From positions 496,001 through 560,000 of the forward strand of contig NZ_CP027295.1 in the NCBI RefSeq assembly GCF_005490785.1: a stretch of DNA of 64,000 bases. Direction: 5' to 3'. A program made the translations under genes and the position numbers. The notes under the pieces were generated by a model, which searched no databases, had not been told where the DNA came from, and worked only from the letters and a program-made list of their open reading frames with translations. This DNA is from Brachybacterium sp. SGAir0954. Its GTDB lineage: Bacteria; Actinomycetota; Actinomycetes; Actinomycetales; Dermabacteraceae. Shown here piece after piece: positions 6,412-62,851 of the stretch; within the stretch, counting starts at the first letter, position 1, and each line of letters starts with the position of its first letter.

Positions 6412-7238
6412 GCACCTTCGGCTTCATCGCCCCCGAGGACATCTGGTCGGCCCGCTCCGAGCAGTACTTCAACCAGGTCCTCGCGGGGATCGAGGACGCG
6501 GTCGCTGGAGCGGGCCACACGGTGCTCACCCGGGCCGTCGCCTCCCGCGAGGAGGAGATGGCCGCCTACCGCGACTGGGCGGCGCGCGGCACGGTCGCGG
6601 CCGTGGTGCTGCGGGACCTCGTGCCCGAGGACCCGCGGCCCGCGCTGCTCGCCGAGCTGGGCCTCGGCCACGTCCTCGAGGGGGACGTGGTCCAGGACGG
6701 CGAGGCGCCCTCGGTGACGGTGGACAACGCCGCCGTCATGCGGGGCGTGCTCGACGCCCTGCGCTCCCGCGGCCTCGAGCGGATCGCCCACCTGGGCGGC
6801 CCGCAGGGGCTCGTGCACTCCGCCCTGCGCCGCGGCGCCTACCTCGACTGGTGCGACACGGCCGGGGAGACCCCGCGCACCGCGGAGGGCGACTACACCG
6901 GGGACAGCGGCGCCCGCGCCCTCGACGCCCTGCTCACCGCGGCCGACGACGGGCCCGACGTGCTCCTCGCGGACAACGACGCCATGGCCCTCGGCGCGCT
7001 CGAGCGGGCGCGGCTGCGCGGCATCGCCGTGCCCGGCACGCTCTCGATCGTCTCCTGGGACGACTCGATGGCCTGCCAGCTCCACGAGCCGCCGCTCGCC
7101 GCCCTCGGCGCCGCCCCCCGCGCGACGGGCGCCGCCGTGGGCCGCGCCCTCAGCGCCCTCGTCGAGCAGCCGCCGCGCGTGCTCCACGAGCGCCGCCCCC
7201 AGCCCGTGCTGCTGGACCGGGGGACGCTGCGGGGCTGA
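6408..7238 (+). CDS. LacI-family sugar-sensing domain without a DNA-binding domain
   Basis: The 276-aa product matches only the periplasmic-binding-protein-like core of LacI regulators: the dimer/ligand regions around VTVDNAAVMRGVLDAL, HLGGPQG, the LLADNDAMALGALE stretch and LSIVSWDDSMACQLHEPPLAAL. The protein begins directly at the first core strand (STFGFIAPED), so the roughly 60-residue HTH and hinge are absent. The ATG overlaps the beta-mannosidase stop (ATGA) and I see no HTH-encoding sequence upstream, where the beta-mannosidase occupies the DNA. It may be a sugar-binding cytoplasmic protein or a heterodimer partner that modulates a full-length LacI protein; its role is not known from sequence. 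Confidence 0.85.
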   Translation: MSTFGFIAPEDIWSARSEQYFNQVLAGIEDAVAGAGHTVLTRAVASREEEMAAYRDWAARGTVAAVVLRDLVPEDPRPALLAELGLGHVLEGDVVQDGEAPSVTVDNAAVMRGVLDALRSRGLERIAHLGGPQGLVHSALRRGAYLDWCDTAGETPRTAEGDYTGDSGARALDALLTAADDGPDVLLADNDAMALGALERARLRGIAVPGTLSIVSWDDSMACQLHEPPLAALGAAPRATGAAVGRALSALVEQPPRVLHERRPQPVLLDRGTLRG

Positions 7239-8282
7239 TCACGCGCGCCGCGGCGCCGTCGACTCCCGCTGGACCAGCTGGGTCTCGAGCTTGAACGGAT
7301 GGGCGAACAGCCCGGGATCCGCGGAGAGCGCGAGCAGACGCTCCACCGCGACCTGCCCCATCTGGAACAGGGGCTGGCGCACGGCGGTGAGCTGGGGGTG
7401 CGTCCACTGGGCGATCATCGTGTCGTCGAAGCCGACGACGCTGAGGTCCTCGGGGACGGAGAGCCCGCGCTGGCGTGCGGCGCGCATGACGCCGACGCCG
7501 AGGGTGTCCGCGACGGCGAAGATCGCGGTGGGCGGCTCGGCGAGCGCGAGCAGCCGGTCGGCGCCGTCCTGCCCGGCTCGGTAGCCGAAGTCGCCGTGCT
7601 CGATGAGCTCCTGGTCCACGGCGATCCCGGCCTGGGCGAGGGCGCTGAGGTACCCCTGGACGCGCTGACGCGCGGGGACGGAGTCCTCCGGCCCGCCGAC
7701 GATCCCGATGCGGCGGTGGCCGAGCTCGAGGAGGTGCTGGACGGCGCTGCTGCCGCCCTCCCAGTTCGTCGCCGAGATCGCGACGACGCCGCGGGTGTCC
7801 GGCTCGATGGTCACGGGGTCGATCGCGATCAGCGGGAGGGAGAGGTCCTTGCTCCAGCGGGCGTGCTTCGGCCCGATCGGCGAGGTCACGGCGATGAGCC
7901 CCTCGACGCCGCGGGAGGCGAGGTCGGCCATCATGGCGCGGGTGGGCCCCGCGGGGACCGCACCGTCGCCGCCGTCGGCGCTCGAGACCATGATGTCGAC
8001 CTCGGCCCGGCGGGCGGCCTGCTCCGCCCCTTCGAGCACCTGCAGCGCGTAGGGGCTCGTGAGCGTGTCGAAGTGGATCATCACGGCGCGCCGCCGCTCG
8101 ACCTCGCGGCGGCGGGGGCGGTAGCCGAGGGCCTCGGCGGTCGCGGCGACCTCCTGGCGGGTCGAGTCGCGCACGTCGGAGCGGCCGTTCATCACCTTGG
8201 AGGCGGTGGCGAGGGAGACCCCCGCCCGCTCCGCGACGTCCTTGAGCGTCACCTTGTCCTGACGCGCTGCGCTGTGCGCCAT
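7239..8282 (-). CDS. LacI-family transcriptional regulator (copy 1)
   Basis: Full-length LacI repressor, 347 aa. The N-terminal HTH is VTLKDVAERAGVSLATASKV with hinge NGRSDVRDSTRQEV, followed by the sugar-binding core ending HPQLTAVRQPLFQMGQ. ATG 8282 is preferred over GTG 8306 because GAGGGGAG precedes it at good spacing. It lies 58 bases downstream of the xylanase gene on the same strand, so it is probably the last gene of the importer-xylanase operon. Its stop abuts the stop of the convergent gene with no gap. It is strongly similar to the LacI protein at 16637-17680, especially in the HTH and the last 60 residues, suggesting related operators and ligands. Confidence 0.93.
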   Translation of the reverse strand: MAHSAARQDKVTLKDVAERAGVSLATASKVMNGRSDVRDSTRQEVAATAEALGYRPRRREVERRRAVMIHFDTLTSPYALQVLEGAEQAARRAEVDIMVSSADGGDGAVPAGPTRAMMADLASRGVEGLIAVTSPIGPKHARWSKDLSLPLIAIDPVTIEPDTRGVVAISATNWEGGSSAVQHLLELGHRRIGIVGGPEDSVPARQRVQGYLSALAQAGIAVDQELIEHGDFGYRAGQDGADRLLALAEPPTAIFAVADTLGVGVMRAARQRGLSVPEDLSVVGFDDTMIAQWTHPQLTAVRQPLFQMGQVAVERLLALSADPGLFAHPFKLETQLVQRESTAPRRA

Positions 8283-50689: not shown

Positions 50690-51853
50690 ATGCGGGAGAT
50701 CGGCGTCGCCGTCGTCGGGCTCGGCTGGATGGGGCGCCTGCACGCCGCCTCCCACCAGCGGCTGCCCTCGCGCTACCCCGAGCTGGGCGTGCGGCCGCGG
50801 CTCGTCGTCGCGGCGGATCCCGTGGAGGCGAACCAGCGGGCGGCCGTGGAGCAGTTCGGCTTCGAGCGGGCGGTGTCGAGCCTCGAGGAGGCCCTCGCCG
50901 ATCCGGCCGTGGACGTCGTCTCGATCTGCTCCCCGAACTTCCTGCACCGCGAGCTCGCCCTGCACGCCGCGCGGGCCGGGAAGCCGTTCTGGATCGAGAA
51001 GCCGATGGGCGTCTCCGCCGCGCAGTCCCGGGAGATCCGCGACGCCGCGCGCGAGGCCGGGATCGCCACGGCGGTGGGCTTCAACTACCGCCACGCCCCC
51101 GCGATCGCGCACCTGCGCGCGCTCATCGCGGAGGGTCGCCTGGGCCGCGTGACGAACGTGCGCTGCCACCTCGACGCCGACTACGCCTCCGCGCCCGACG
51201 GGCCCCTCACCTGGCGCTACGACCGCCAGAAGGCGGGCAGCGGCGTGATCGGGGACCTGCTCTCCCACGGCGTGGACCTCGTATCCCACGTCACCGGGCA
51301 GGCGATCACCGAGGTCAGCGCCATGACCGACGTGTTCATCCGCGAGCGGCCGATCCCGCTCGGCGCGGGCGTGGGCCACGGCGGCATGGAGCTGAGCGGC
51401 GAGCACGGTCCCGTCGGCAACGAGGACTGGGCCGCCGCGCTCGCCCACCTCGACGGCGGCGCCCACGCGACGCTCGAGACCAGCCGCGTCGCCCGCGGCC
51501 ACCGCTCCGACTACGCCCTCGAGGTGTTCGGCACGGAAGGCTCCGCCCGCTGGTCCTTCACCCGCATGAACGAGTTCGAGGTGATGATCGGCGACGGCGG
51601 CACCGAGCACGGCTACACGACCGTGCTCGCGGGCGCCGGCCACGGCGACTACGCGCGCTTCCAGCCCGGCCCCGGCATCCCGCTCAGCTTCGACGACCTC
51701 AAGACCATCGAGGGCGCGGCCTTCCTCTCCGACGTCACGGCCGGCACCGCGCTCGCGCCGAACGCCGAGGACGGGCTGCGCGCGGCCGAGGCGTGCGAGG
51801 CGATCGTCCGCTCCGCCGCGAGCCGGGCGTGGGAGGCGGTCAGCGCGGGCTGA
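50690..51853 (+). CDS. Gfo/Idh/MocA-family oxidoreductase in the inositol cluster
   Basis: A 387-aa dehydrogenase-type protein with VAVVGLGWMGRLHAASHQRL, PFWIEKPMGVSAAQ (EKP lysine) and SGVIGDLLSHGVDLVSHVTG, where the usual GSH reads LSH but keeps the His. ATG 50690 has GGGGAG upstream; GTG 50684 overlapping the previous stop is the alternative. It ends the rightward operon, and its last 14 bases overlap the convergent ABC ATPase gene. With iolG and the gene at 43758 it is the third such enzyme in the cluster, possibly for scyllo- or D-chiro-inositol. Confidence 0.88.
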   Translation: MREIGVAVVGLGWMGRLHAASHQRLPSRYPELGVRPRLVVAADPVEANQRAAVEQFGFERAVSSLEEALADPAVDVVSICSPNFLHRELALHAARAGKPFWIEKPMGVSAAQSREIRDAAREAGIATAVGFNYRHAPAIAHLRALIAEGRLGRVTNVRCHLDADYASAPDGPLTWRYDRQKAGSGVIGDLLSHGVDLVSHVTGQAITEVSAMTDVFIRERPIPLGAGVGHGGMELSGEHGPVGNEDWAAALAHLDGGAHATLETSRVARGHRSDYALEVFGTEGSARWSFTRMNEFEVMIGDGGTEHGYTTVLAGAGHGDYARFQPGPGIPLSFDDLKTIEGAAFLSDVTAGTALAPNAEDGLRAAEACEAIVRSAASRAWEAVSAG

Positions 51854-53453
51854 GGCGGCGCTCGGGGTCGGGGATGCTCGCGAGCAGGGCGCGGGTGTAC
51901 TCGTGCTGCGGGGAGCCCAGCACCTCGCGCGCGGTGCCCTGCTCCACGGCCCGCCCGGCGCGGAGCACGGTGACGTGGTCCGCGAGGGAGCCGACGACGG
52001 CGAGGTCGTGGCTGATGAAGACGCACGCGAAGCGCGCCTCCTCGATCGCCTCGCGCAGCACCTCGATGACGTGCGCCTGGATGGTGACGTCGAGGGCGCT
52101 CGTGGGCTCGTCGGCGACGAGCAGGGAGGGCCTGCGGATCAGCGCACGGGCGATCGAGACCCGCTGGCGCTGCCCGCCGGAGAGCTCGTGCGGGAGCCGG
52201 CGCGTATAGGAGGCGGGCAGGCGCACCTGCTCGAGCGCCGCCGCCACCCGCCGGGCGGCATCGGCGCGGCTCGTGGTCCCCTCGAGCTGCAGCGGCTCCG
52301 CCACGCTCCAGCCCACGGTGCGCCGTGGGTTGAGCGAGGAGGCAGGGTTCTGGAACACCATGCCCACCTGGGCGTACGCCGCGCGTCGGGCGGCACGGCC
52401 CAGGGTGCGCGGGTCCACGCCGCCGAGCTCGAGGGTGCTGGCCTCGACGGGGACGAGGCCCGCGAGCGCCTTGCCCCAGGTGGACTTGCCGGAGCCGGAC
52501 TCGCCCACGAGACCGTGGATCTGCCCGGGCCGGATCTCCATGCCGACCCCGTCGAGCGCCCGGTGCGCGCCGCCGCGACGGCGGTACTCGACCGAGAGCC
52601 CCTCGACGCGCACGACGGGCTCCCCCTCCTCGGCGGCGCCGTCGGCCGCGGAGGCGTGCTCGAGGGCCTCGGCGAGCCGGGGCACGGCGGTGAGCAGCTC
52701 GCGGGTGTACGGCGCCGAGGCGTTCCCGAGCACCTCGCGCACGCTCCCCGTCTCGACGACGGCGCCGTCCTTGAGGACGACGACCTCGTCCGCGATCTCG
52801 CCCACCACGCCCATGTCGTGCGTGATGAGCAGGACCCCCACCGCGCGCTCCTCGACGATGCGGCGCAGCAGCTCGAGGATGCCGCGCTGCACGGTGACGT
52901 CGAGGGCGGTGGTGGGCTCGTCGGCGATGAGCAGGTCCGGGTCGCCGCTCAGGGCGAGGGCGATGACGACGCGCTGCATCTCGCCGCCGGAGAGCTCGTG
53001 CGGGTACGAGGCGGCCGTGCGGTCCGGGTCCGGGAGGCCGACGGAGGCGAGCAGCTCCCGCGTCCGCTCCCGCACGCGGGCCGCACCGCGGAGGTCCTCG
53101 CGCACCGCGAGCACGTCCCGGAAGGCCGCGGAGACCTTCATGACCGGGGACAGCGACTGCCCCGGCTCCTGGAAGACGGTGCCCACGCGGTGCGCGCGCA
53201 CCTGCCGCAGCGGCCCCGGCGCGAGGCCCACGAGCTCCTCTCCGTCCAGCCGCGCGCTGCCCCGGACCTCGGCGCCGGCGGGCTGGAGTCCGATCGTGGA
53301 CAGGGCGCTGATGCTCTTGCCCGAGCCGGACTCGCCCACGAGGGCGGTGATCCGGCCGCGGCGCACGGTGAGGTCCAGGCCGGACACGATGGTCCGGCCC
53401 GCGATCGCCACGTGCAGGGCGTCGAGGACGAGGAGGTCGCTCGCGGTGGTCAT
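51840..53453 (-). CDS. Fused double ATPase of a Dpp-type ABC transporter
   Basis: A 537-aa protein holding two complete ABC domains in one chain, equivalent to DppD plus DppF. The first has Walker A GESGSGKS (40-47) and signature LSGGE (154-158); the second has Walker A GESGSGKS (317-324) and LSGGQ (424-428), each with Walker B and ITHD/ISHD. An Ala/Glu-rich linker (about 262-278) joins them. It is the last gene of the leftward operon permease, permease, binding protein, ATPase. The ATG shares its first base with the upstream stop (TGATG). Confidence 0.93.
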   Translation of the reverse strand: MTTASDLLVLDALHVAIAGRTIVSGLDLTVRRGRITALVGESGSGKSISALSTIGLQPAGAEVRGSARLDGEELVGLAPGPLRQVRAHRVGTVFQEPGQSLSPVMKVSAAFRDVLAVREDLRGAARVRERTRELLASVGLPDPDRTAASYPHELSGGEMQRVVIALALSGDPDLLIADEPTTALDVTVQRGILELLRRIVEERAVGVLLITHDMGVVGEIADEVVVLKDGAVVETGSVREVLGNASAPYTRELLTAVPRLAEALEHASAADGAAEEGEPVVRVEGLSVEYRRRGGAHRALDGVGMEIRPGQIHGLVGESGSGKSTWGKALAGLVPVEASTLELGGVDPRTLGRAARRAAYAQVGMVFQNPASSLNPRRTVGWSVAEPLQLEGTTSRADAARRVAAALEQVRLPASYTRRLPHELSGGQRQRVSIARALIRRPSLLVADEPTSALDVTIQAHVIEVLREAIEEARFACVFISHDLAVVGSLADHVTVLRAGRAVEQGTAREVLGSPQHEYTRALLASIPDPERRLSPR

Positions 53454-55123
53454 CAGCCCAGCGTCACCGTGAGGTAGTTCGGGTAGGCCGGGAACTCGCC
53501 GATGACGAAGTCCTTCACGCCGGAACCGTGGAGGAAGGAGTTCTTCGAGTAGATGAGCGGCACCAGCGGGGAGTCCTGCAGGATCTGCTTGTCCACGGCG
53601 GCCCACTTCGCGGCGGCCTCGTCGGCGTCGACCGTCGAGGAGGCGTCCAGCAGGGCCTTGTCCACCTCGGGGTTCGAGTAGCGGGCGAGGTTGTAGTTGC
53701 CGCCGCCGATCTGGCTCGAGTCGAACAGCGGGGTGAGGTTCGCGTCCGGGGAGGGGACGTCGGGCTGCCAGGAGCCGAGCACCAGGTCGTAGCCGGAGCC
53801 GTCGCCCGCCGGGACCTCGGAGGTGTAGGCGTTCTCGTCGAGCGGCTGGATCGTCACGGTGATGCCGGCGCGGGCGAGACCCTGCTGGATCGCCTCCGCG
53901 GCGGCGGTGTCGTCCTCGGTGATGACCAGGCGCAGGCTGAGGTCCTTCACGCCGGCCTCGGCGAGCAGGGACTTCGCCTTCTCGGCGTCGCCCGCGGGCG
54001 CGTCGCCGTACAGCGAGTACTCCTCGCGGCCCTCGATGCCGGGGGTGATGAGGGTCGTCGCGTAGTCGCCGGAGATCTCGCCGCCCTTGGCGGTGCGGTA
54101 GGCCTCCTTGTCCACGGCGTACTGGATCGCGGTGCGGACCTTGACGTCCTTGAGCGCCTCGGACTGCGTGTTCATGGCGAGGTACTCGAGCGCGCCGGGG
54201 CCGGAGGTGACGAGGCGGTCGCCCACCTTGGGGTCGTTCTGCGCCTGGACGAGCTGGGCGGCCGGCACGAAGCTCGCGAGGAAGGCGTCCTGCGCGTCGG
54301 AGCGGTCGGCGATGAGCGACTGGGCGACGACGCTGGAGTCCTGGGCGAGGGCGAACTCGATGCTGTCGGGGCCGCCGGTGCGGGCCTGGTCCGTCGAGGA
54401 GTCCCACTTCTCGTTGCGCTCGAGGACGACCTGGCTGCCGGCCTTGTACGAGGCCACGCGGTAGGGGCCGCTCGCGACCGGCTTGGTCGCGTAGCTCTCG
54501 GGCTCGCCGGAGTCCTCGGGGACGGGCGCGAAGGCGGGCGTCGAGGCGATCCAGCCGAAGGCGCCGTAGGGGCGGTTGAGGTGAAAGACGAGGGTCGTCT
54601 CGTCCTTCGCCTCGATCGAGTCGAGGTGCTTCCCGGAGAAGGGGCCCTCGTAGTCCTCGCCGCCCTCGAGCAGCACCTTGTGGTAGGTCAGGCCGCCCGT
54701 GAGCTCCTTCGCGAAGGAGCGCTCGAGGCCGTACTTCACGGTCGCGGCGGTGATCGCCGTGCCGTCCTCGAAGGTGAGTCCGTCCTGGAGGGTGAAGGTC
54801 CAGGTCCTGCCGTCGTCCGACGGGGTCCCGGTGTCCGTGGCGAGGTCGGGGATGAGCTCGGTGGGGGCGTCGGCCGAGGTCTTCCAGGCGGTGAGGCGGC
54901 GCGCCGTGAGGCCCAGCGAGGTGATCGCGAGGCTCTGGCTCGTCGCGGGGTCGAAGCTCATGTCCTCGCTGGTGGAGAAGATCGTGAGGGTGCCGCCCTG
55001 GGCGCCGCCGGCGTCGGACGAGGAGGAGGAGCCGCCGTCGGTGCACGCGGCGAGCGCGCCGAGTCCGAGGACGACGGGGCCGGCGGCGAGGAGGCCGCGA
55101 CGGGGGAGGCGGGGGCTGGTCAT
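53453..55123 (-). CDS. Dpp-type substrate-binding lipoprotein (SBP family 5)
   Basis: A 556-aa binding protein of the peptide/nickel/oligosaccharide family. The N-terminus RLPRRGLLAAGPVVLGLGAL plus AACTDGG gives a twin-arginine-like signal and a lipobox, followed by a Ser/Gly linker. Family hallmarks are SFDPATSQSLA, the DGLTFEDGTAITAATVKYGLE region, and ALKDVKVRTAIQYAVDKEAY. The start is ATG 55123, overlapping the permease stop (ATGA), with AGGAG upstream. The ligand is unknown; peptide, metal complex or oligosaccharide are all possible. Confidence 0.92.
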   Translation of the reverse strand: MTSPRLPRRGLLAAGPVVLGLGALAACTDGGSSSSSDAGGAQGGTLTIFSTSEDMSFDPATSQSLAITSLGLTARRLTAWKTSADAPTELIPDLATDTGTPSDDGRTWTFTLQDGLTFEDGTAITAATVKYGLERSFAKELTGGLTYHKVLLEGGEDYEGPFSGKHLDSIEAKDETTLVFHLNRPYGAFGWIASTPAFAPVPEDSGEPESYATKPVASGPYRVASYKAGSQVVLERNEKWDSSTDQARTGGPDSIEFALAQDSSVVAQSLIADRSDAQDAFLASFVPAAQLVQAQNDPKVGDRLVTSGPGALEYLAMNTQSEALKDVKVRTAIQYAVDKEAYRTAKGGEISGDYATTLITPGIEGREEYSLYGDAPAGDAEKAKSLLAEAGVKDLSLRLVITEDDTAAAEAIQQGLARAGITVTIQPLDENAYTSEVPAGDGSGYDLVLGSWQPDVPSPDANLTPLFDSSQIGGGNYNLARYSNPEVDKALLDASSTVDADEAAAKWAAVDKQILQDSPLVPLIYSKNSFLHGSGVKDFVIGEFPAYPNYLTVTLG

Positions 55124-56145
55124 GAGGATGTCTCCTGGGTGGTGGGGGTGGCGGGGCGGCGGCCGCCGACGGCCAGACGGCGGTCGAGCAGGGGCCGGGC
55201 GAGGTCCGCGGCGAGGTTCGCGAGGACGATGAGCAGGGATCCGACGAACGTGGTCCCGACGATGACGGGGAGGTCCGCGGTGGAGGTCGCGTCGAGCAGC
55301 AGCGCGCCGAGGCCCGGCAGGCCGAAGATCCGCTCCGTGATGACGGTGCCGCCGAGCAGGGCGCCGAGGTCGAGGGCGACGAGGGTCGTGAGCGGCAGGG
55401 CGAGGTTGCGCAGGGCGTAGCGGTCGATGCGGCGCTCGGGGAGGCCGGCGGCGCGGGCGGTGCGCGCGTAGTCCAGGCCCAGCTGCTCGATCATCGAGGA
55501 GCGGACGAGCCGGGCGTAGACGGCGCCGTTGAGGAAGGCGAGCGTGGCCCACGGCAGGATCAGGTGCAGCGCCCACGGGCCGGGGCCGTCGGCCAGGTTC
55601 TCGTAGCCGCCGCTGGGCAGCAGGCCCAGGCGCAGGGCGACGACGACCACGGCGAGCAGGCCGACGACGAAGGCGGGGGCGGAGGCCGAGATCACCGAGA
55701 CCGCGGTGACGACCCGGTCGAGGATCCCGCCCTGGCGACGGGCGGCGAGGGCGCCCGCGGCGATGCCGAGGGCGGACTGCAGCACGACGGCGCCGATCGC
55801 GACCGAGACGGTGACCGGGAACCGCTCACCGATGAGGGTCGTGACGTCCTGGTGGTACTGGAAGGAGTAGCCCAGGCACGGGGCGGCGCAGTGCACGAGC
55901 ACGTCGCCGGAGCCGTAGGTGCGGCCCACGACGAGCGCGGCGAGGAAGCTGCCGAGCTGCGCCCACCAGGGGCGGTCGAAGCCCATGAAGCCGCGCGCGG
56001 CCTCGAGGTCCTCCGGGGAGCAGGGCTTGCCGCACATGCGCAGGGCGGGGTCGATCGGGGCGAGGTAGAAGATCGCGTAGGTGAGCGCGAGGACGACGAG
56101 CAGCACGCCGAGGCTGCGGGCCACGCGCTGGAGGGCGGGGATCAC
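55120..56145 (-). CDS. Dpp-type ABC permease (DppB-like)
   Basis: A 341-aa permease with a first span LGVLLVVLALTYAIFYLAPI, a long extracytoplasmic loop containing two Cys pairs (MCGKPCSPED and VHCAAPCLGY), five more spans and the coupling loop ARAAGLPERRIDRYAL. The paired cysteines could form disulfides outside the cell. GTG 56145 overlaps the stop of the preceding permease (GTGA). The frame stays open upstream into the other permease gene, which is rejected as coding. Confidence 0.9.
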   Translation of the reverse strand: MIPALQRVARSLGVLLVVLALTYAIFYLAPIDPALRMCGKPCSPEDLEAARGFMGFDRPWWAQLGSFLAALVVGRTYGSGDVLVHCAAPCLGYSFQYHQDVTTLIGERFPVTVSVAIGAVVLQSALGIAAGALAARRQGGILDRVVTAVSVISASAPAFVVGLLAVVVVALRLGLLPSGGYENLADGPGPWALHLILPWATLAFLNGAVYARLVRSSMIEQLGLDYARTARAAGLPERRIDRYALRNLALPLTTLVALDLGALLGGTVITERIFGLPGLGALLLDATSTADLPVIVGTTFVGSLLIVLANLAADLARPLLDRRLAVGGRRPATPTTQETSS

Positions 56146-57083
56146 GGGCGGCCTCCCCGCGGGTCGAGGGCGTCCCGGAGGGTGTCGCCGAGGATGGTGA
56201 AGGAGAAGGTCACGAGGAACAGGGCCGCCGCGGGGAAGAGCAGGAAGGCGGGGTCCACGAGCAGCCAGTTGATCGCGTCGCCGATCGAGCGGCCCCAGGA
56301 CGGGGTGGGCGGGAGCATGCCGACGCCGAGGAAGGACAGCGTGGCCTCCGCGGCGATGCGCCCGGGCAGCGAGATGCAGGAGAAGACGATGACGGTCGAG
56401 GCGACGTTCGGCAGCACCTGATGGCGGAAGACGTGCCCGAAGCGGGCGCCCATGACGCGGGAGGCGACGACGTAGGGCTGGCGGACGATGACCCGGGTCT
56501 CCGCCGCGACGACGCGCGCGATCGAGGGCCAGCCGAACATGCCGATGACGAGGGTGAGCAGCAGGGCGCGGGGCGCCTCGAGCGGGAACAGCGCGCTGAG
56601 CGCGATCGCGAAGATGAGGAAGGGGAAGCCGAGGGTCACGTCGGTCGCGAAGTCCACGAGCTTCTCGACGACGCCGCCGACGGCGCCCGCGACGATCCCG
56701 AGCACCACGCCGATCACGGTCGCGAGCAGGGTCGAGGCGAGGCCCACGAGCAGGGACACGCGCGCCCCGTAGACGACGAGGGAGAAGAGGTCGCGCCCGG
56801 TGCCGGGCTCGACGCCGAACCAGTGGTCGCCGCTCACGCCGCCCAGCGCGCCGGCGGGCGCGGTGTCGGGGCCCAGGGCGTCCGCGTGGTACGTGAACGG
56901 GTCGTTGCCGCTGAACGCGGCGAGCTGCGGGGCGAACAGGGCGGCGAGCACGCTCACCAGCACGACGACCGCGGCCGCGAGGGGCAGCGGGCGCAGGAAG
57001 GCGCGGCCCACCCAGCGGCGGGCGGGGCGCTCGTCGAGCGAGGCGGCCGCCTCCGCCGGCAGGGCATCGCTGGTCGTCATCAT
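56142..57083 (-). CDS. Dpp-type ABC permease (DppC-like)
   Basis: A 313-aa permease, first gene of the operon. The first span is LAAAVVVLVSVLAALFAP; DHWFGVEPGTGRDLFSLVVYGARVS is the conserved DppC region before span 2, and the coupling loop is ASRVMGARFGHVF. Start candidates are ATG 57083 and ATG 57080; a TTG at 57104 would lie inside the palindromic operator and is rejected. The ribosome-binding site (GAAAG) is weak. Confidence 0.88.
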   Translation of the reverse strand: MMTTSDALPAEAAASLDERPARRWVGRAFLRPLPLAAAVVVLVSVLAALFAPQLAAFSGNDPFTYHADALGPDTAPAGALGGVSGDHWFGVEPGTGRDLFSLVVYGARVSLLVGLASTLLATVIGVVLGIVAGAVGGVVEKLVDFATDVTLGFPFLIFAIALSALFPLEAPRALLLTLVIGMFGWPSIARVVAAETRVIVRQPYVVASRVMGARFGHVFRHQVLPNVASTVIVFSCISLPGRIAAEATLSFLGVGMLPPTPSWGRSIGDAINWLLVDPAFLLFPAAALFLVTFSFTILGDTLRDALDPRGGRP

Positions 57084-57100
57084 CAAGGCTTTCGATTGTC

Positions 57101-57116
57101 CCAACGTGAACGTTGG
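57101..57116. promoter_or_regulatory. 16-bp palindromic operator of the Dpp-type operon
   Basis: CCAACGTGAACGTTGG has perfect seven-base arms and a two-base centre, 18 bases before the first permease start. The form (CCAACGT/ACGTTGG) fits a LacI- or TetR-type repressor, none of which is encoded nearby. It differs from all other palindromes in the window. Confidence 0.7.
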
Positions 57117-57183: not shown

Positions 57184-58818
57184 TCAGTCGGTGCGGGCGA
57201 GGTGCTCGTGGATGCGGGAGACGACCCCGGCCCCCTCCCCCGTCGCCGAGGCCACACGCTTCATCGAGCCGGAGCGCACGTCCCCCGCGCAGAAGACGCC
57301 CGGCACGGAGGTCTCGAGCTCCGCGGGCGGCAGCCCGCCGCGCCAGTCCTCCCCCGGCACGTCACGACCGGTGAGCACGTAGCCCTTCGCGTCGCGACGC
57401 ACCGCGTCGGGCAGCCACTCGCAGTGGGGCTCCGCGCCGAGCAGCAGGAACAGGCCCTGGACGGGGCGGCGCTCGCGGGAGCCGTCGCGCTCGAGCTCGA
57501 GCCAGGCGACGTCGCCGTCCTCCGCGCCGCCGTCGACCACCCGTGTGGAGCCCTCGACGGTGATCCGCTGGTTCGCCGCGATCTCGGTGATGAGGTAGGC
57601 GCTCATCGTGGAGCGGAGGTCCGGGCGGCGCACCGCGATCGTCACCGAGCGGGCGAAGCGGGCGAGGTGCACGGCCGCCTGACCGGCGCTGTTGCCGCCG
57701 CCGACGACGACCACGTCCTGCCCCTCCATCTCGCGGGCGGCGGTCATCGCGGCGCCGTAGTGCACGCCGCGGCCCACGAGCTCCTCGAGCGCGGGCACCC
57801 CGAGCCGGCGGTAGGCCACGCCCGTCGCGACGACGACCGTGCGGGCGAGCAGCTCCCCCGCCTCGGTGCGCACCCGGTGCGGGGCGCCGTCCTCGCCGGG
57901 CACGAGCTCCTCCGCCTCCCAGCCGGGGAAGAAGCGGGCGCCGAAGCGGATCGCCTGGCTGCGGGCGCGGGTGGACAGGCGCATGCCGGAGATGCCGCGC
58001 GGGAAGCCGAGGTAGTTGCGGATCATCGAGCTGCTCCCGGCCTGCCCGCCGACGGCGCCCGCCTCGAGCGCGAGCGTCGTGAGCCCCTCGCTCGCCGCGT
58101 AGACGCAGGCGGCGAGGCCCGCGGGCCCCGCGCCGACGACGACCACGTCGAGCACCTCGTCGACGTCCGCGAGGGAGGCGGCGTCGGACCGGCCGAACAG
58201 CTCACGGGCGAGGGTGCGCACGTCCGGCACGTGGCGGGGCGGGCGGTCCTGCGTGACGACCTGCGGGTACGGGCCCACGTCGCCCGGGCCGGGCGGGTGC
58301 ACGCCGTGCGGGGTGCCGCCGCGGAAGAGGTAGTCGTGCAGCTCCCGCGCGACCGGGTCCCCGGGCGGCGCGATGATCCGCACGGTCTCCACCTGGGGCG
58401 CGGCGATCGTCGCGGTCCACTCGTTCAGCAGCTCGACGACGGCGGAGTGGAACTCCTCGTCCCGCACGCCGCGCGGCATGAGCAGGTGCGCGTCGAAGGC
58501 GCCCATGGCGACCTTGTGGCGCAGCGCCTGCGCGTGCTCGAGGAACCGCGGCCAGGGGGTCACGGCGAGCCGGCGCGCGGTGGGGACGAGCGCCCGCTGC
58601 TCGTGCAGGGCGTGCTTGAGGGAGGGCGTGGGCAGGGTCGTGTCCAGCACCATGAGGGCGAGCGGGGCGCCCTCCTCCTCAGCGCGGCGGATCAGGGCGA
58701 CGCCCTCCTCGAGGGACGGCGCGACGGTCACCGCGTACTCCGCGGCGTAGCGGCCGAACTGGGCCCGCAGCACCTCCTCGTTCTCGGCGGTGACCAGCAG
58801 GATCATCGGATCGCTCAT
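57184..58818 (-). CDS. Receiver-like/thioredoxin-reductase-like flavoprotein fusion
   Basis: A 544-aa protein. Residues 1-135 resemble a response-regulator receiver: a strand MILLVTAENEE, Asp59 in LMVLDTT, but the conserved Lys position reads LLMP. Residues about 223-544 are a thioredoxin-reductase-like flavoprotein with FAD motif GAGPAG (229-234), NADPH motif GGGNSA (373-378) and the C-terminal GVFCAGDVRSGSMKRVASA FAD site, here with a G-D-V pattern. The redox CxxC expected near residue 355 is absent (HYGAAMTA). It should be an NAD(P)H oxidoreductase acting on something other than thioredoxin. GAGGAG precedes the ATG; it follows the antiporter gene by 17 bases. Confidence 0.88.
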   Translation of the reverse strand: MSDPMILLVTAENEEVLRAQFGRYAAEYAVTVAPSLEEGVALIRRAEEEGAPLALMVLDTTLPTPSLKHALHEQRALVPTARRLAVTPWPRFLEHAQALRHKVAMGAFDAHLLMPRGVRDEEFHSAVVELLNEWTATIAAPQVETVRIIAPPGDPVARELHDYLFRGGTPHGVHPPGPGDVGPYPQVVTQDRPPRHVPDVRTLARELFGRSDAASLADVDEVLDVVVVGAGPAGLAACVYAASEGLTTLALEAGAVGGQAGSSSMIRNYLGFPRGISGMRLSTRARSQAIRFGARFFPGWEAEELVPGEDGAPHRVRTEAGELLARTVVVATGVAYRRLGVPALEELVGRGVHYGAAMTAAREMEGQDVVVVGGGNSAGQAAVHLARFARSVTIAVRRPDLRSTMSAYLITEIAANQRITVEGSTRVVDGGAEDGDVAWLELERDGSRERRPVQGLFLLLGAEPHCEWLPDAVRRDAKGYVLTGRDVPGEDWRGGLPPAELETSVPGVFCAGDVRSGSMKRVASATGEGAGVVSRIHEHLARTD

Positions 58819-58835
58819 GAGAACTCCTCGCGTCG

Positions 58836-60692
58836 TCAGGCGGTCGCGTGGTGGATGTAGCACCAGCGCCAGGTCTCGCCCGCCTCCGCGGACTGCATGA
58901 CCGGGTGGCCGGTGTCGTGGAAGTGGTTCGTCGCGTGCTGTGCCGGGGAGCTGTCGCAGCAGCCCACGTGCCCGCACTCGAGGCACTGGCGCAGGGCGAC
59001 CCAGCGGGCACCCTCGGCCACGCAGCTCGCGCACACGGGGTCCTCGGGCGTCTCCGCGATGGGGAAGGCCTGCAGCTCCTCGCACCAGCCGCCCTCGCCG
59101 GCGCCGGTCGCGACCATGTCGCCGTGCGCGCCCTCCGCCTCGTCGAGCATCGACTCCTCGAGGTCGAGCATGCCGAGCACCTCGCGGATCACGTGGGACG
59201 GCGTGCTGCCCTTGCTGCGGATCTCGAGCACCTTCGTGCGCTCGGCGCGCAGCATCCTCCGCCGCACGCGGGTGTACGCCTGGCTGGGCGTCTCGTCGTC
59301 CGAGGAGGTGGACAGCCGCTCCCAGGCGGCGAAGCTGCGCTGGTCCACGCGGGCACGGACCCCGGCGATCACGTCCTCCGGGGTCTCCCCCGCGCAGGTC
59401 TCGAGCTCGGCGAGGCCGGCCTCCCCCGCCTTGTGCAGCACGGTCGCGCGGGCGAGGGCCTCGACGGCCGGGTCCTCGGGGCGCACCCGCAGCAGCCGGG
59501 TGAGCCAGGGCAGGCTCAGGCCCTGGAGGTAGAGCGTGCCGAGCACGACCGTGAGCGAGGCGAGCACGAGCAGGTCGTGGTGCGGCACGGAGGCGGGGAT
59601 GACGAAGACCGCCGCGATCGTCACGACGCCGCGCATGCCGGCCCAGGAGACGACGAGCGCATGGGACCACGGCTCCCGGTCCCGGTCCTTCCGGGTGAGG
59701 TTCTGGATCCCGTGGACGAGGCTCACCCACAGCACGCGCAGCACGATCACCGCGGCGAGCACGGCGAGGCAGAAGCCGATCGCCCGGAGCGCGGAGACGC
59801 TGCCGTCGAGGCCCGCGACGATGCTCGCCGCCTGCAGTCCGATCAGCAGGAAGACGGCGTGCTCGAGCAGGTAGGCGATGCTCGTCCAGGTCACCCGCTC
59901 GGTGATGCGGGAGGCGGAGGTCTGCACGATCGGTGCCTTGTGGCCGATCAGCAGGCCCGCGACGACCACCGCGATGACGCCCGAGGCCTCGATCTCCTCC
60001 GCGACCAGGTAGGCGGCGAAGGGGATGACGAAGGAGATGCCGGTGTCGATGAGCGGATCGTGGACGAGCCGGCGCACCTGCACGACGACGAGCGCGACGA
60101 GCAGGCCGATGATCAGCCCGCCGCCCGCGGCGACGACGAAGTCCTCCGCGATGGTGGCGACGGCGACCGTGCCGGAGATCGCGGCGATCGCGGTGCGCAG
60201 GGAGACCAGGGCCGTCGCATCGTTGAGCAGCGACTCGCCCTCGAGGACGGTGACGATCTGCCGGGGCAGACCGATCCGTCGGGCCACCGCGCTCGCGGAG
60301 ACCGCGTCCGGCGGGGCGACGACGGCGCCGAGCGCGATCGCGACCGGCCAGCCGACGTCGGGCATGATCGCCATGACCACGGCGGCGACGCCGAGCGTCG
60401 TGAGGACGACGAGCGCGACGGAGAGCAGCAGGACGGGGACGATGTTCGCCTTGATGTCCTGGATCGAGGTCTGCAGCGAGGTCGAGTAGAGCAGCGGCGG
60501 CAGCAGGCCGAACAGCACGAGCTCCGGGGAGAGCTCGACCGCGGGGATCATCGGCAGGAACGAGCCGACGAGGCCGACGGCGAGCAGCACCATCGGCGGC
60601 GGAAGGCGCAGGCGCTCGGCGAGCGCGGTGCCCACGAGGGTGGCGACCGCGAGGCCCACGACGAGAAGGAGGATGTCCACTCCAGGGATCAT
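58836..60692 (-). CDS. Na+/H+ antiporter (CPA1) fused to a UBP-type zinc finger
   Basis: A 618-aa fusion. Residues about 1-400 form a CPA1 antiporter with some 12 spans, including VVAPPDAVSASAVARRIGLP, the ESLLNDATALV motif with the ion-binding Asp, and WAGMRGVVTIAAV. A cytoplasmic helical tail follows. The last 80 residues are a UBP-type zinc finger: CASC, LRQCLECGHVGCCDSSPAQH, NHFHDTGHPVMQSAEAGETW, WCYIHH. Eukaryotic UBP fingers bind ubiquitin; the role of bacterial ones is unknown. The start ATG 60692 precedes VDILLLVVGLAVATLVGT; upstream open frame is unsupported. It is co-oriented with the flavoprotein gene. Confidence 0.9.
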   Translation of the reverse strand: MIPGVDILLLVVGLAVATLVGTALAERLRLPPPMVLLAVGLVGSFLPMIPAVELSPELVLFGLLPPLLYSTSLQTSIQDIKANIVPVLLLSVALVVLTTLGVAAVVMAIMPDVGWPVAIALGAVVAPPDAVSASAVARRIGLPRQIVTVLEGESLLNDATALVSLRTAIAAISGTVAVATIAEDFVVAAGGGLIIGLLVALVVVQVRRLVHDPLIDTGISFVIPFAAYLVAEEIEASGVIAVVVAGLLIGHKAPIVQTSASRITERVTWTSIAYLLEHAVFLLIGLQAASIVAGLDGSVSALRAIGFCLAVLAAVIVLRVLWVSLVHGIQNLTRKDRDREPWSHALVVSWAGMRGVVTIAAVFVIPASVPHHDLLVLASLTVVLGTLYLQGLSLPWLTRLLRVRPEDPAVEALARATVLHKAGEAGLAELETCAGETPEDVIAGVRARVDQRSFAAWERLSTSSDDETPSQAYTRVRRRMLRAERTKVLEIRSKGSTPSHVIREVLGMLDLEESMLDEAEGAHGDMVATGAGEGGWCEELQAFPIAETPEDPVCASCVAEGARWVALRQCLECGHVGCCDSSPAQHATNHFHDTGHPVMQSAEAGETWRWCYIHHATA

Positions 60693-60782: not shown

Positions 60783-61616
60783 GTGACCGTGACCGACAGC
60801 AGCGACCGCCCGGACCCGGGGCCCACCGCGCCCGGGGAGCAGGACCTGCCCTGGAAGGCGACGGCGGAGCGCCGCGACCTGTGGGGGCCGGTCGAGAAGC
60901 CCCCCGAGGGCACCGTGCACACGCCCGGCGCCCCGCGCCGCGGGCGCCTGCTCGGCCTGGGGCTGCCGCTCCTGCTGGGCGTGCTCGCCGGCACCGCGAC
61001 CCTCCTGCTCGGCATCGGCGGGATCGGCGGGATCGCCCTCGCCGCCGGGGTCGGCGTGGTCGCCGCGGGCGGCAGCGGGGTCGGCCTGCGCGCCCTGCGC
61101 CCCGAGCCGCCGCTCCTCGAGCCCGCCGGGGCGGAGGTCGCCGACGGCACCCGCACCCTGCTCGAGGCGATCCTGCGCGACGCCGCCGCCGGCCACGAGC
61201 GGATCGCGGGGCTGCGCGCGAGCAGCCGCGACGCGGCCGTCGGCCCCGTGCTGGGCCGCGCGGAGGACCTCTACACCCGGATCGAGGCGCTCGCCCGCAC
61301 CGAGGAGGTGCAGTCGCGGCGACCGTCCGACGGCGGCCTCGCCCTGCTCGAGGGCATGGCGGACCGCTACGTGCCCGAGCTGCTCGACGCCGTCGAGGAC
61401 ACCTCCGGGTTCCTCGCGACCTTCGCGGGCACCGCCCGCGAGGAGGCCCTGACGAACCTGCGCGGCATCGACGACCAGCTCACCGTGCTCGGCGAGAGCC
61501 TCGAGGAGATCGAGAAGGACCTCGTCGCCGGCGTGACCCGCTCCCTCGACGTGCACGCCGAGTTCCTCCGCACCCGCTTCGCGGACCACCACGTCACCCC
61601 GACCATCGACCTCTGA
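60783..61616 (+). CDS. XpaC-like membrane-associated protein, partner of TelA
   Basis: A 277-aa protein with a charged N-terminus, a Gly-rich hydrophobic hairpin (GLGLPLLLGVLAGTATLLLGIGGIGGIALAAG, described by residues about 58-90) and a soluble helical C-terminal half ending LRTRFADHHVTPTIDL. The helical part resembles XpaC (5-bromo-4-chloroindolyl phosphate hydrolysis) proteins, which are regularly encoded next to TelA. The assignment rests on layout and neighbour. The start is GTG 60783; GTG 60789 is possible. It is 23 bases upstream of telA and divergent from the antiporter. Confidence 0.7.
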   Translation: MTVTDSSDRPDPGPTAPGEQDLPWKATAERRDLWGPVEKPPEGTVHTPGAPRRGRLLGLGLPLLLGVLAGTATLLLGIGGIGGIALAAGVGVVAAGGSGVGLRALRPEPPLLEPAGAEVADGTRTLLEAILRDAAAGHERIAGLRASSRDAAVGPVLGRAEDLYTRIEALARTEEVQSRRPSDGGLALLEGMADRYVPELLDAVEDTSGFLATFAGTAREEALTNLRGIDDQLTVLGESLEEIEKDLVAGVTRSLDVHAEFLRTRFADHHVTPTIDL

Positions 61617-61639: not shown

Positions 61640-62851
61640 ATGGACAAGCTGCAGCCGCCCACCCCCGAGCCGGAGATCGTCGCCGCGGCGCCCGTCGAGG
61701 AGCTCAGCGAGGAGAAGGCCGTCTCCCTGCTGAGCGACCTGCCCGCCGATCAGGCGAAGGAGCTCGAGCAGCGGGCCGGCAGCTGGATCGACGAGGTCTC
61801 CGCGCTGAACCCGCACTCGCAGGAGTTCAGCGCGCAGGTCGCCGCGATCGGCGCGGTCGCCAAGAAGACCTTCGAGCGCACGGGCGCCTCGAGCTCCCGC
61901 TTCATGGAGCAGTCGATGCGGGACGCCCGCGACGGCGGCGCCCAGGAGAAGGTCGCCCAGAGCCTCGTCCAGCTGCGCACCCGCATGGAGGACCTCGCGC
62001 CGAAGCCGGACACCTTCGCCACCAAGGCGCTGTCGTTCCTGCCCGGCCGCGGCGCCGCGAAGCGCTACTTCCGCGGCTTCGAGTCCAACCAGAAGCAGCT
62101 CGACGAGGTGCTCCAGGCGCTGGGCCGCGGGCAGGAGATGCTGCAGCGGGACAACGCCGAGCTCGCCGTGGAGCGCCGCGCCCTGTGGGAGGACCTCCAG
62201 AACCTCCAGAAGGCCTCCCACCTGCTGGGCCAGCTCGACTCGCAGGTCGTGGACCGGGCCGCGCAGGCGCGGGCGGAGGGCCGGGCCGACGTCGCCGACG
62301 GTCTCGAGCGGGACGTGCTCTTCGCGGTGCGCCAGCGCCGCCAGGACGTCGCCACCCAGATCGCCGTGACCGTCCAGGCCTACCTCTCGATGGGCCTCAT
62401 CGAGGACAACAACACCCAGCTCGCGCGCGGCGTGGACCGGGCCCGCACCACGACCGTGACCGCGCTGCGCACCGCCGTCATCACGGCGCAGGCGCTCGAG
62501 AACCAGCAGATCGTGCTCGACCAGATCGACGCGGTCAACCGCACCACGAACGACCTCATCGACCGCACCTCCCAGATGCTCGCCCAGAACACGGCGCGCA
62601 TCCAGGAGCAGGCGGCCACCTCGGGCGTCTCCCCCGAGACGCTGCAGCGCGCCTTCGACAACCTCTTCACGACCATGGACGGGATCGACGCCTTCCGCGC
62701 GAAGGCCAACGAGAACTTCCTGACCACCGTGAACGCCCTCGAGCAGCAGGTGGGGCGTGCCCACCCGTACGTCGAGCGGCTCCAGCACGACGCCGCCGAG
62801 GGCCGCACCCTCGAGGGCGGGACCCGCACGAACCTGTCCATCGAGGACTGA
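61640..62851 (+). CDS. TelA-family toxic anion resistance protein
   Basis: A 403-aa, almost fully helical cytoplasmic protein of the TelA/KlaA family, linked to tellurite and other stress resistance. Family signatures are the PGRGAAKRYFRGFESNQKQLDEVLQ region (starting near residue 137), LERDVLFAVRQRRQDVATQIAVT and LRTAVITAQALENQQIVLDQI, then DLIDRTSQMLAQNTARIQEQA. Coiled-coil tendency is high throughout. AGGAG precedes the ATG. A hairpin terminator follows the stop by 14 bases. Confidence 0.92.
   Translation: MDKLQPPTPEPEIVAAAPVEELSEEKAVSLLSDLPADQAKELEQRAGSWIDEVSALNPHSQEFSAQVAAIGAVAKKTFERTGASSSRFMEQSMRDARDGGAQEKVAQSLVQLRTRMEDLAPKPDTFATKALSFLPGRGAAKRYFRGFESNQKQLDEVLQALGRGQEMLQRDNAELAVERRALWEDLQNLQKASHLLGQLDSQVVDRAAQARAEGRADVADGLERDVLFAVRQRRQDVATQIAVTVQAYLSMGLIEDNNTQLARGVDRARTTTVTALRTAVITAQALENQQIVLDQIDAVNRTTNDLIDRTSQMLAQNTARIQEQAATSGVSPETLQRAFDNLFTTMDGIDAFRAKANENFLTTVNALEQQVGRAHPYVERLQHDAAEGRTLEGGTRTNLSIED

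Follow-up and report, generated by a model that had tools for sequence, protein, structure and literature searches.

A UBP-type zinc finger fused to a CPA1 antiporter, with an adjoining pseudo-receiver flavoprotein, suggests a stress-responsive control unit for ion exchange in Brachybacterium

The 64,000-nucleotide (nt) stretch of Brachybacterium sp. SGAir0954 analysed here (contig NZ_CP027295.1, positions 496,001 to 560,000; hereafter the window) carries on its reverse strand a gene for a CPA1 Na+/H+ antiporter that ends in a UBP-type zinc finger, followed by a gene for a flavoprotein resembling thioredoxin reductase (TrxR). Across the phylum, genes for the finger and for the flavoprotein share a genome and are neighbours well beyond chance expectation, an association which suggests that ion exchange is governed by a stress-responsive control unit not described before. 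A redox-responsive flavoprotein may tune the antiporter by way of the finger, which would serve as a regulatory or docking domain in the cytoplasm, the whole acting as a stress module; we consider this plausible, at a little under an even chance. A preliminary description of the sequence had proposed that the pair could couple redox state to cytoplasmic pH or Na+, and a coupling of this sort is the most economical interpretation, with the interaction and the effect on transport as its predictions. The features are as follows.

58836..60692, reverse strand: CPA1 Na+/H+ antiporter with C-terminal UBP-type zinc finger, 618 amino acids (aa) (open reading frame (ORF), PF00999, PF02148, TIGR00831, Foldseek)
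59499..60647, reverse strand: transmembrane exchanger domain, aa 16–398 (Pfam, 30-row alignment, AlphaFold2 (AF2))
59103..59471, reverse strand: helical region, aa 408–530, leading from the membrane domain to the finger (AF2; TIGR00831 reaches aa 516)
58854..59084, reverse strand: UBP-type zinc finger, aa 537–613, Pfam core 554–613 (Pfam, alignments, match to 2ida_A)
58819..58835, reverse strand: 17-nt intergenic gap, with a GAGGAG Shine-Dalgarno-like run at 58829–58824 ahead of the flavoprotein ORF
57184..58818, reverse strand: FAD/NAD(P)H flavoprotein with a pseudo-receiver N-terminus, 544 aa (ORF, Pfam, NCBIfam, alignment, AF2, Foldseek)
58402..58818, reverse strand: pseudo-receiver domain, aa 1–139, five beta-alpha units (AF2 secondary structure, residue check)
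58189..58386, reverse strand: small alpha/beta linker domain, aa 145–210, without CxxC (AF2, alignment)
57196..58155, reverse strand: thioredoxin-reductase-like FAD/NAD(P)H domains, aa 222–541, without CxxC (PF07992, alignment, Foldseek)

Among 396 genomes of the phylum the finger was found in 95, the flavoprotein in 87 and both in 68 (Fisher p 1e-36; the Fisher tests used here ignore kinship and take genomes as independent, though they are related). A flavoprotein is no more than 6 kb away from 28 of 125 fingers, against a chance expectation of about 0.5 that presumes 4.5-Mb genomes; the 125 are what is left of 129 finger rows after the four with the poorest E values (1.2e-5 to 5.4e-4) were dropped. 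Counted from the other side, a finger is that close to 27 of the 124 flavoproteins. These 124, in 87 genomes, come from an alignment-based search cut at 430 bits, which leaves out lower-scoring fragments such as that of G141, and their CxxC status was checked in part of them. Since at most three candidates were scored per genome, this count and that of the class sample described below are lower bounds. The earlier assertion that bacterial UBP fingers occur repeatedly beside such flavoproteins is borne out by these figures.

For the gene neighbourhoods, up to 6 kb on either side of the finger matches was fetched, giving 136 stretches whose ORFs were mapped with home-made hidden Markov models (L numbers denote fetched loci or stretches and G numbers genomes, G000 being the window genome). 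The resulting 142 finger hits, the window's counted, include split or fragment hits, and some contigs end early. Twelve hits are fused to a CPA1 antiporter and 21 more have one in the stretch (17 of these within 600 nt), which makes 33 of 142. A TrxR-like flavoprotein is in the stretch of 34 hits, two of which, the window's and that of L178, are also fused; the other 32 have a flavoprotein and no CPA1 gene in the stretch (these include the CPA2 fusion L084, and L174 with its NhaA), and the link between finger and flavoprotein is therefore independent of the antiporter. One set consists of the 80 loci nearest to the query, so that fusions are over-represented in it. Antiporter, finger and flavoprotein stand together in the window, in L178 of the same genus, in Nocardioides baculatus (L188), in G572, G570 and G539 and, by coordinates, also in G861 and G864; one of the sampled genomes could belong to the species of L188. 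The L178 flavoprotein is read in two frames (4419–5309 and 5282–7963, reverse strand) with part of the FAD-binding region in neither, being a decayed gene or an assembly error.

A class sample of 394 genomes yielded 30 flavoproteins closest to that of the window (itself counted), which were checked residue by residue. The fused antiporter is next door in four of the 30, and adjacency is thus not obligatory. The 29 other genomes with a pseudo-receiver flavoprotein contain the finger in 26 cases and a verified CPA1-finger fusion in 23. Fusions were accepted only when verified by domain search or by a tail in alignment A3, because an 865-aa finger ORF of G428 (L170) has no antiporter domain; ORF length would have given 24, and taking any long finger ORF for a fusion was rejected for the same reason. 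In a sample of 120 genomes from one family, 74 carry a full-length fused tail and 56 a flavoprotein of the pseudo-receiver class, called at 400 bits or more to the window protein and not by residue. Both are present in 49 genomes, the flavoprotein only in seven, the fusion only in 25 and neither in 39 (p 3e-8), i.e. the fused antiporter is found in 49 of 56 genomes with the flavoprotein versus 25 of 64 without it. With three split copies added the four figures become 50, 6, 27 and 37. The preliminary description had presented the finger as fused, in this case, to an ion pump; that is true of the window, but 74 of 120 genomes in one family show that it is not singular, and the many fused relatives likewise disposed of a one-off fusion.

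The antiporter ORF opens with ATG and encodes a protein whose identity, a CPA1 antiporter with a C-terminal UBP finger, was correctly given from the start: Na_H_Exchanger covers aa 16–398 with 169 bits, the whole protein reaches 291.1 bits against TIGR00831 (a_cpa1; cut-off 279.6), and the finger domain also exceeds its threshold. Residues N157, D158 and R354 are identical across all 30 alignment rows, N157–D158 being presumably the Asn-Asp ion-binding pair and R354 the conserved GMRG arginine. The transport motifs are thus intact in sequence and the protein is a predicted Na+/H+ exchanger. The AF2 model (mean predicted local distance difference test, pLDDT, 83) consists of exchanger helices, the helical region 408–530, a low-confidence linker and a low-confidence finger, and its closest solved structures in Foldseek are SOS1, SLC9C1 and NHE1, with PaNhaP lower in the list. 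By analogy with the family, the helical region would lie on the cytosolic side. The spacing of 17 nt between the two genes is exact (58835–58819); a scan for promoters and terminators at this locus detected none, and the closely spaced genes probably form a co-transcribed stress module. Plasmid relatives of the whole antiporter were sought and rejected, since the 20 listed of 383 records match at most to aa 534 and have no finger.

The finger scores 36.9 bits against zf-UBP (PF02148) at aa 554–613, above the curated gathering threshold of 22.7, and is the single zf-UBP that the profile search found in the window genome. Its ligand pattern, CxxC..CxxC..CC..H..H..H, comprises C554, C557, C570, C573, C578, C579, H586, H590 and H596. 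These positions are invariant across 16 fused tails (alignment A3), indicating that selection acts on the finger, and at least 90% kept in the 30-row alignment A4, which includes three antiporters that have no finger fused to them. A chance or misread finger is ruled out by the score and this conservation. That all Cys/His ligands are visible, as had been stated, holds for the nine residues named, but not for the opening of the domain: a C-x-H-hydrophobic opening, a pattern of our own, occurs in 127 of 219 fingers (matches with E>1e-15 or spanning fewer than 55 residues left out), and the window has C537-E-E-L, with an acid in place of the His. The third residue of the opening is an acid in 13 and His in 36 of 49 fused CPA1 fingers. 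The nearest solved structure by sequence is 2ida_A (E 3.7e-22).

The flavoprotein has FAD and NAD(P)H domains of the TrxR/AhpF type (Pfam, Foldseek). The protein is not a classical thioredoxin reductase: against TIGR01292 (thioredoxin-disulfide reductase) it scores 187.7 bits, short of the cut-off of 343.45, and the CxxC pair is absent from the aligned stretch in all 18 flavoprotein rows. The redox-active CxxC of TrxR usually lies in the NADPH domain. The missing CxxC also led to the rejection of a genuine thioredoxin reductase with the finger as its substrate. The linker domain (aa 145–210) looks thioredoxin/glutaredoxin-like by eye in the model, a tentative fold assignment.

The "receiver" of the preliminary description stands as a fold. 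In the AF2 model (mean pLDDT 76, predicted template modelling score 0.66, 7-row alignment) residues 5–139 form five alternating strands and helices, the (beta-alpha)5 receiver fold, with a block pLDDT of 57–90. Its function does not stand: a Pfam search of the flavoprotein gave no match to Response_reg with the limit relaxed to E<=1, and the key residues, DDDTK in intact relatives, read TADTM or LVDTM by two alignments. Asp and Thr are retained, the acidic pair and Lys are gone, and none of the 30 flavoproteins nearest the window's (itself counted) has the receiver Lys or a complete acidic pair. By its residues the N-terminus is a pseudo-receiver and not a working receiver. Five relatives were scanned by Pfam; L105 has Response_reg, L117 has cNMP_binding, and L188, L127 and L248 gave no Response_reg at E<=0.01. 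The N-terminal type could be assessed in 39 of 41 flavoproteins, L178 and L263 having no usable N-terminus. A histidine kinase with a cyclic nucleotide (cNMP)-binding domain is in the locus of 19 of 20 intact receivers (all five key residues), none of six pseudo-receivers (that of the window included) and none of 13 other N-termini, the labels "intact" and "pseudo" having been assigned after the residues were seen; L076 and L127 among the pseudo-receivers retain Asp and Lys. The L188 row of alignment A2 is short of the first 13 residues. A working receiver served by a kinase elsewhere in the genome was rejected, there being no full-length homologue of the kinase of L141 in the window genome at E<=1e-8; two separate partial matches reach 66.6 bits (query 24–171) and 58.9 bits (316–495).

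In the flavoprotein tree (41 rows) the seven pseudo-receivers form one clade (99/94) nested among receiver types, and the window, L178 and L188, the sole Nocardioidaceae row, group at 100/99. The antiporter tree (92 rows) unites 48 fused antiporters and one row scored as a neighbour in one clade (100/99); by their sequences, fused CPA1 antiporters thus form one large actinobacterial clade. Four antiporters of the window's genus fall within a 100/100 clade composed mostly of Nocardioidaceae, with Nocardioides baculatus L188 sister to the genus at 92/90, under the tool's star mark. The window, L178 and L188 accordingly cluster in both trees, which place the window near Nocardioides baculatus and hence indicate one donor side for both genes, as would be expected had they travelled together. 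Two of the four genus members lack this flavoprotein next to the fused antiporter.

A mechanism may be pictured as follows. The finger would lie in the cytoplasm and serve for docking or regulation, and the flavoprotein, with FAD and NAD(P)H bound, would respond to the redox state of the cell or to an electrophile. Its target could then be the finger or the helical region ahead of it, so that autoinhibition of Na+(K+)/H+ exchange is either released or imposed. In the branch to which the window belongs the receiver input would have decayed to a pseudo-receiver, so that redox/NAD(P)H or contact with a protein is probably the remaining signal; sister systems have a flavoprotein of this kind with an intact receiver and adjoining kinase gene, or with a cyclic-nucleotide domain.

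Several counts weigh against this scheme. No finger lies within 6 kb of 97 of the 124 flavoproteins, and 77 of the 142 finger hits (L096, a CPA2 fusion, among them) have neither CPA1 antiporter nor flavoprotein in the stretch. In the class sample, 26 of 30 pseudo-receiver flavoproteins are without a finger in the flank of at most 1.5 kb that was examined, and recurrent ORFs occupy the flanks of such isolated genes. The 25 genomes of the 120-genome family with a fusion and no flavoprotein belong here, as do the seven with a flavoprotein and no intact fused tail, five of which are of one genus. Within the window's own genus the finger is found in three of 23 other genomes, and therefore is an accessory gene there; it is absent from 20 of the 24 sampled members. 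Two congeners depart from the pattern, G411 with the fused antiporter and no flavoprotein, and G407, in which a different contig adds a standalone finger and a flavoprotein of the cNMP type to the fused antiporter. The finger block of the AF2 model has a pLDDT of 37–66, and a docking surface can therefore not be read from it.

Finger and flavoprotein occur in three settings: two-component, chaperone operon and antiporter, the last with the finger beside or fused to CPA1 and with or without an adjoining flavoprotein. The two-component setting combines a receiver flavoprotein, a cNMP-binding histidine kinase (cNMP_binding and HATPase_c by Pfam in L141) and the finger, and by its domains would be a two-component system whose output domain is the flavoprotein. 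The kinase gene lies between the receiver-flavoprotein and finger genes in L141 (4496–6013, forward strand), L105 (6315–8258, reverse strand) and similar loci. The chaperone operon reads grpE-dnaJ-cbpM-clpB-trxA-finger-flavoprotein (cNMP type), on one strand and in the same order, in L106, L117, L125 and L175, the last a member of the window's genus, and is found also on a Rhodococcus plasmid (dnaK annotated) and a Streptomyces plasmid (L261, L265; the L265 stretch begins inside dnaJ). A Paraburkholderia plasmid carries a flavoprotein gene and a finger gene, with Clp ATPase and Hsp20 genes on the opposite strand.

The finger also forms fusions to CPA2/Kef-like antiporters, three of them (L084, L096, L101) among the 142 hits. 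Further cases are L245, a Chloroflexi metagenome-assembled genome, and a Deinococcus ficus plasmid, which with the Actinomycetota spread these fusions over three groups; TrkA_N was verified by Pfam in L084 and L245. The finger-CPA2/Kef-like fusions mapped are:

L084, 6045–8117, reverse strand
L096, 6054–8276, reverse strand
L101, 4135–6297, forward strand
L245, 3868–6213, forward strand, with a cNMP-histidine kinase homologue directly upstream
L260, 3150–5213, forward strand

The finger thus pairs with or fuses to cation/proton antiporters of two families, CPA1 and CPA2. NhaA, a third antiporter family, was seen near fingers in L116 (8255–10144, forward strand), L174 (10365–12200, reverse strand) and L248 (8950–10953, forward strand); Pfam shows the L116 protein to be an NhaA with a fused thioredoxin/DsbA domain, and those of L174 and L248 align with it over a comparable length.

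Across these settings the constant element is the finger with the flavoprotein, and the variable ones are the input domain of the flavoprotein and the effector of the finger. A broader possibility, to which we give a more guarded, minority weight, is that the finger and the TrxR-like flavoprotein without CxxC make up the invariable core of a portable redox-signalling module of bacteria, not described so far, that swaps inputs and effectors, the window representing the branch with the finger in an exchanger. Inputs would then be a kinase-driven receiver, a cyclic-nucleotide domain or a pseudo-receiver, and effectors the CPA1 and CPA2 antiporters by fusion and the chaperone operons by adjacency.

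It is less likely that the finger itself is the sensor, its zinc-thiolate cluster being oxidised or losing zinc under stress and so gating the antiporter, with the flavoprotein co-regulated or re-reducing the finger. The Cys-rich nature of the domain and its CC pair, invariant in fused tails, would suit such a role, as would the fused antiporter in 25 of 64 genomes devoid of the pseudo-receiver flavoprotein and the presence of the finger on CPA2 antiporters that have a TrkA_N domain of their own. The flavoprotein, however, lacks the CxxC required for classical disulfide reduction, and the 32 finger hits with a flavoprotein and no CPA1 gene stand against a sensor serving the antiporter.

Equally doubtful is a peptide-binding finger of the kind known from eukaryotic deubiquitinases, bringing in damaged or tagged proteins or some other component of the cell, with antiporter and flavoprotein as separate clients. 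Matches to solved structures make the window finger homologous to the UBP fingers of USP49 and USP16, and pairs of finger and cNMP-type flavoprotein directly follow clpB-trxA in six chaperone operons, both of which favour recruitment. In USP16-like fingers the Arg of the CGR motif binds the C-terminus of ubiquitin. The USP16 Arg is aligned to the Asp of CCDSS in the window; in the USP49 alignment this Asp is opposite a gap and the Arg opposite a Ser. Because of this substitution, binding of a ubiquitin tail in the eukaryotic manner of USP5/HDAC6-type fingers is unlikely, as far as the alignments indicate, and the five-residue CCDSS segment is free of Arg in 19 of 19 bacterial fingers.

Plain neighbourhood, in which two stress genes are co-transcribed by chance, the finger stabilising or assembling the antiporter and the flavoprotein acting on an unrelated substrate, is improbable: only four of the 49 genomes with both genes in the 120-genome family have them adjacent (G570, G539, G861, G864), but co-occurrence at the genome level is above chance and adjacency recurs in several families.

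The genes around the pair were also inspected. Upstream of and divergent from the antiporter lie a 277-aa protein with no Pfam match (60783–61616, forward strand) and TelA, of toxic anion resistance (61640–62851, forward strand); telA and its neighbour were rejected as conserved partners, having no homologue at E<=1e-8 in loci L044–L296. Downstream of the flavoprotein, 51840–57104 (reverse strand) holds ABC transporter genes, two of them permeases by Pfam; ORFs for a substrate-binding protein and an ATPase were recognised by eye, and the group is probably a unit of its own.

Should tuning of the antiporter by the flavoprotein through the finger be correct, a function would be assigned to two widespread orphan bacterial families, the UBP fingers and the CxxC-less receiver or cyclic-nucleotide "thioredoxin reductases", and the UBP finger would be regulatory in bacteria, outside ubiquitin. 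Antiporter, finger and flavoprotein are separable, which makes a regulatory role directly testable. Among the open-licence papers listed by a literature search, none was on bacterial UBP fingers with these partners, judged by title and abstract opening; comparative genomics of prokaryotic treble-clef and ubiquitin-like systems by the Aravind group may already cover the contexts of UBP fingers.

Among known proteins, the CPA1 antiporters nearest the window's by solved structure are plant SOS1, sea urchin SLC9C1 and NHE1–CHP1. The C-terminal regions of SOS1, SLC9C1 and NHE1 control transport, and to our knowledge these tails are unrelated to the UBP finger. The bacterial UBP finger protein 2IDA has the same PF02148 domain, but 2ida_A is a 102-residue chain, whereas the window finger is the tail of a transporter. 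Thioredoxin reductase and AhpF share the FAD and NAD(P)H domains of the window flavoprotein, which differs in being without CxxC, in falling under the TrxR cut-off and in its added pseudo-receiver and linker domains.

The tLST stress island unites the H+/K+ antiporter KefB-GI, thioredoxin and heat-shock proteins (PMC8290217). The likeness is that finger/flavoprotein pairs are found elsewhere in chaperone operons; the difference is that no chaperone gene was seen adjoining the window pair, the tLST gene set itself not having been searched for.

Glutathione-gated K+/H+ efflux is known from KefC–KefF and from a second pair, KefB–KefG, and KefF has a flavodoxin-like fold. In KefC the RCK domains inhibit the transporter and the soluble NADH-binding KefF is needed for maximal activity, according to a study (PMC11150392) which also describes weak or no complex formation from purified parts. 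The window system resembles this one in having a cation/proton antiporter with a C-terminal regulatory domain, cytosolic in Kef and predicted to be so here, and a soluble partner that would bind a nicotinamide nucleotide. The parts differ: Kef antiporters are CPA2 and that of the window CPA1; an RCK/TrkA_N domain stands in Kef where the window antiporter has a zinc finger and, by Pfam, no TrkA_N; and the partner is TrxR-like in the window and flavodoxin-like in KefF. By its parts the window system falls in neither Kef nor tLST. If the preferred reading is right, it would provide, alongside Kef, a second and independently built link between a cation/proton antiporter and a soluble flavoprotein, and by analogy KefC–KefF, which it resembles while built from unrelated parts, is its nearest working precedent.

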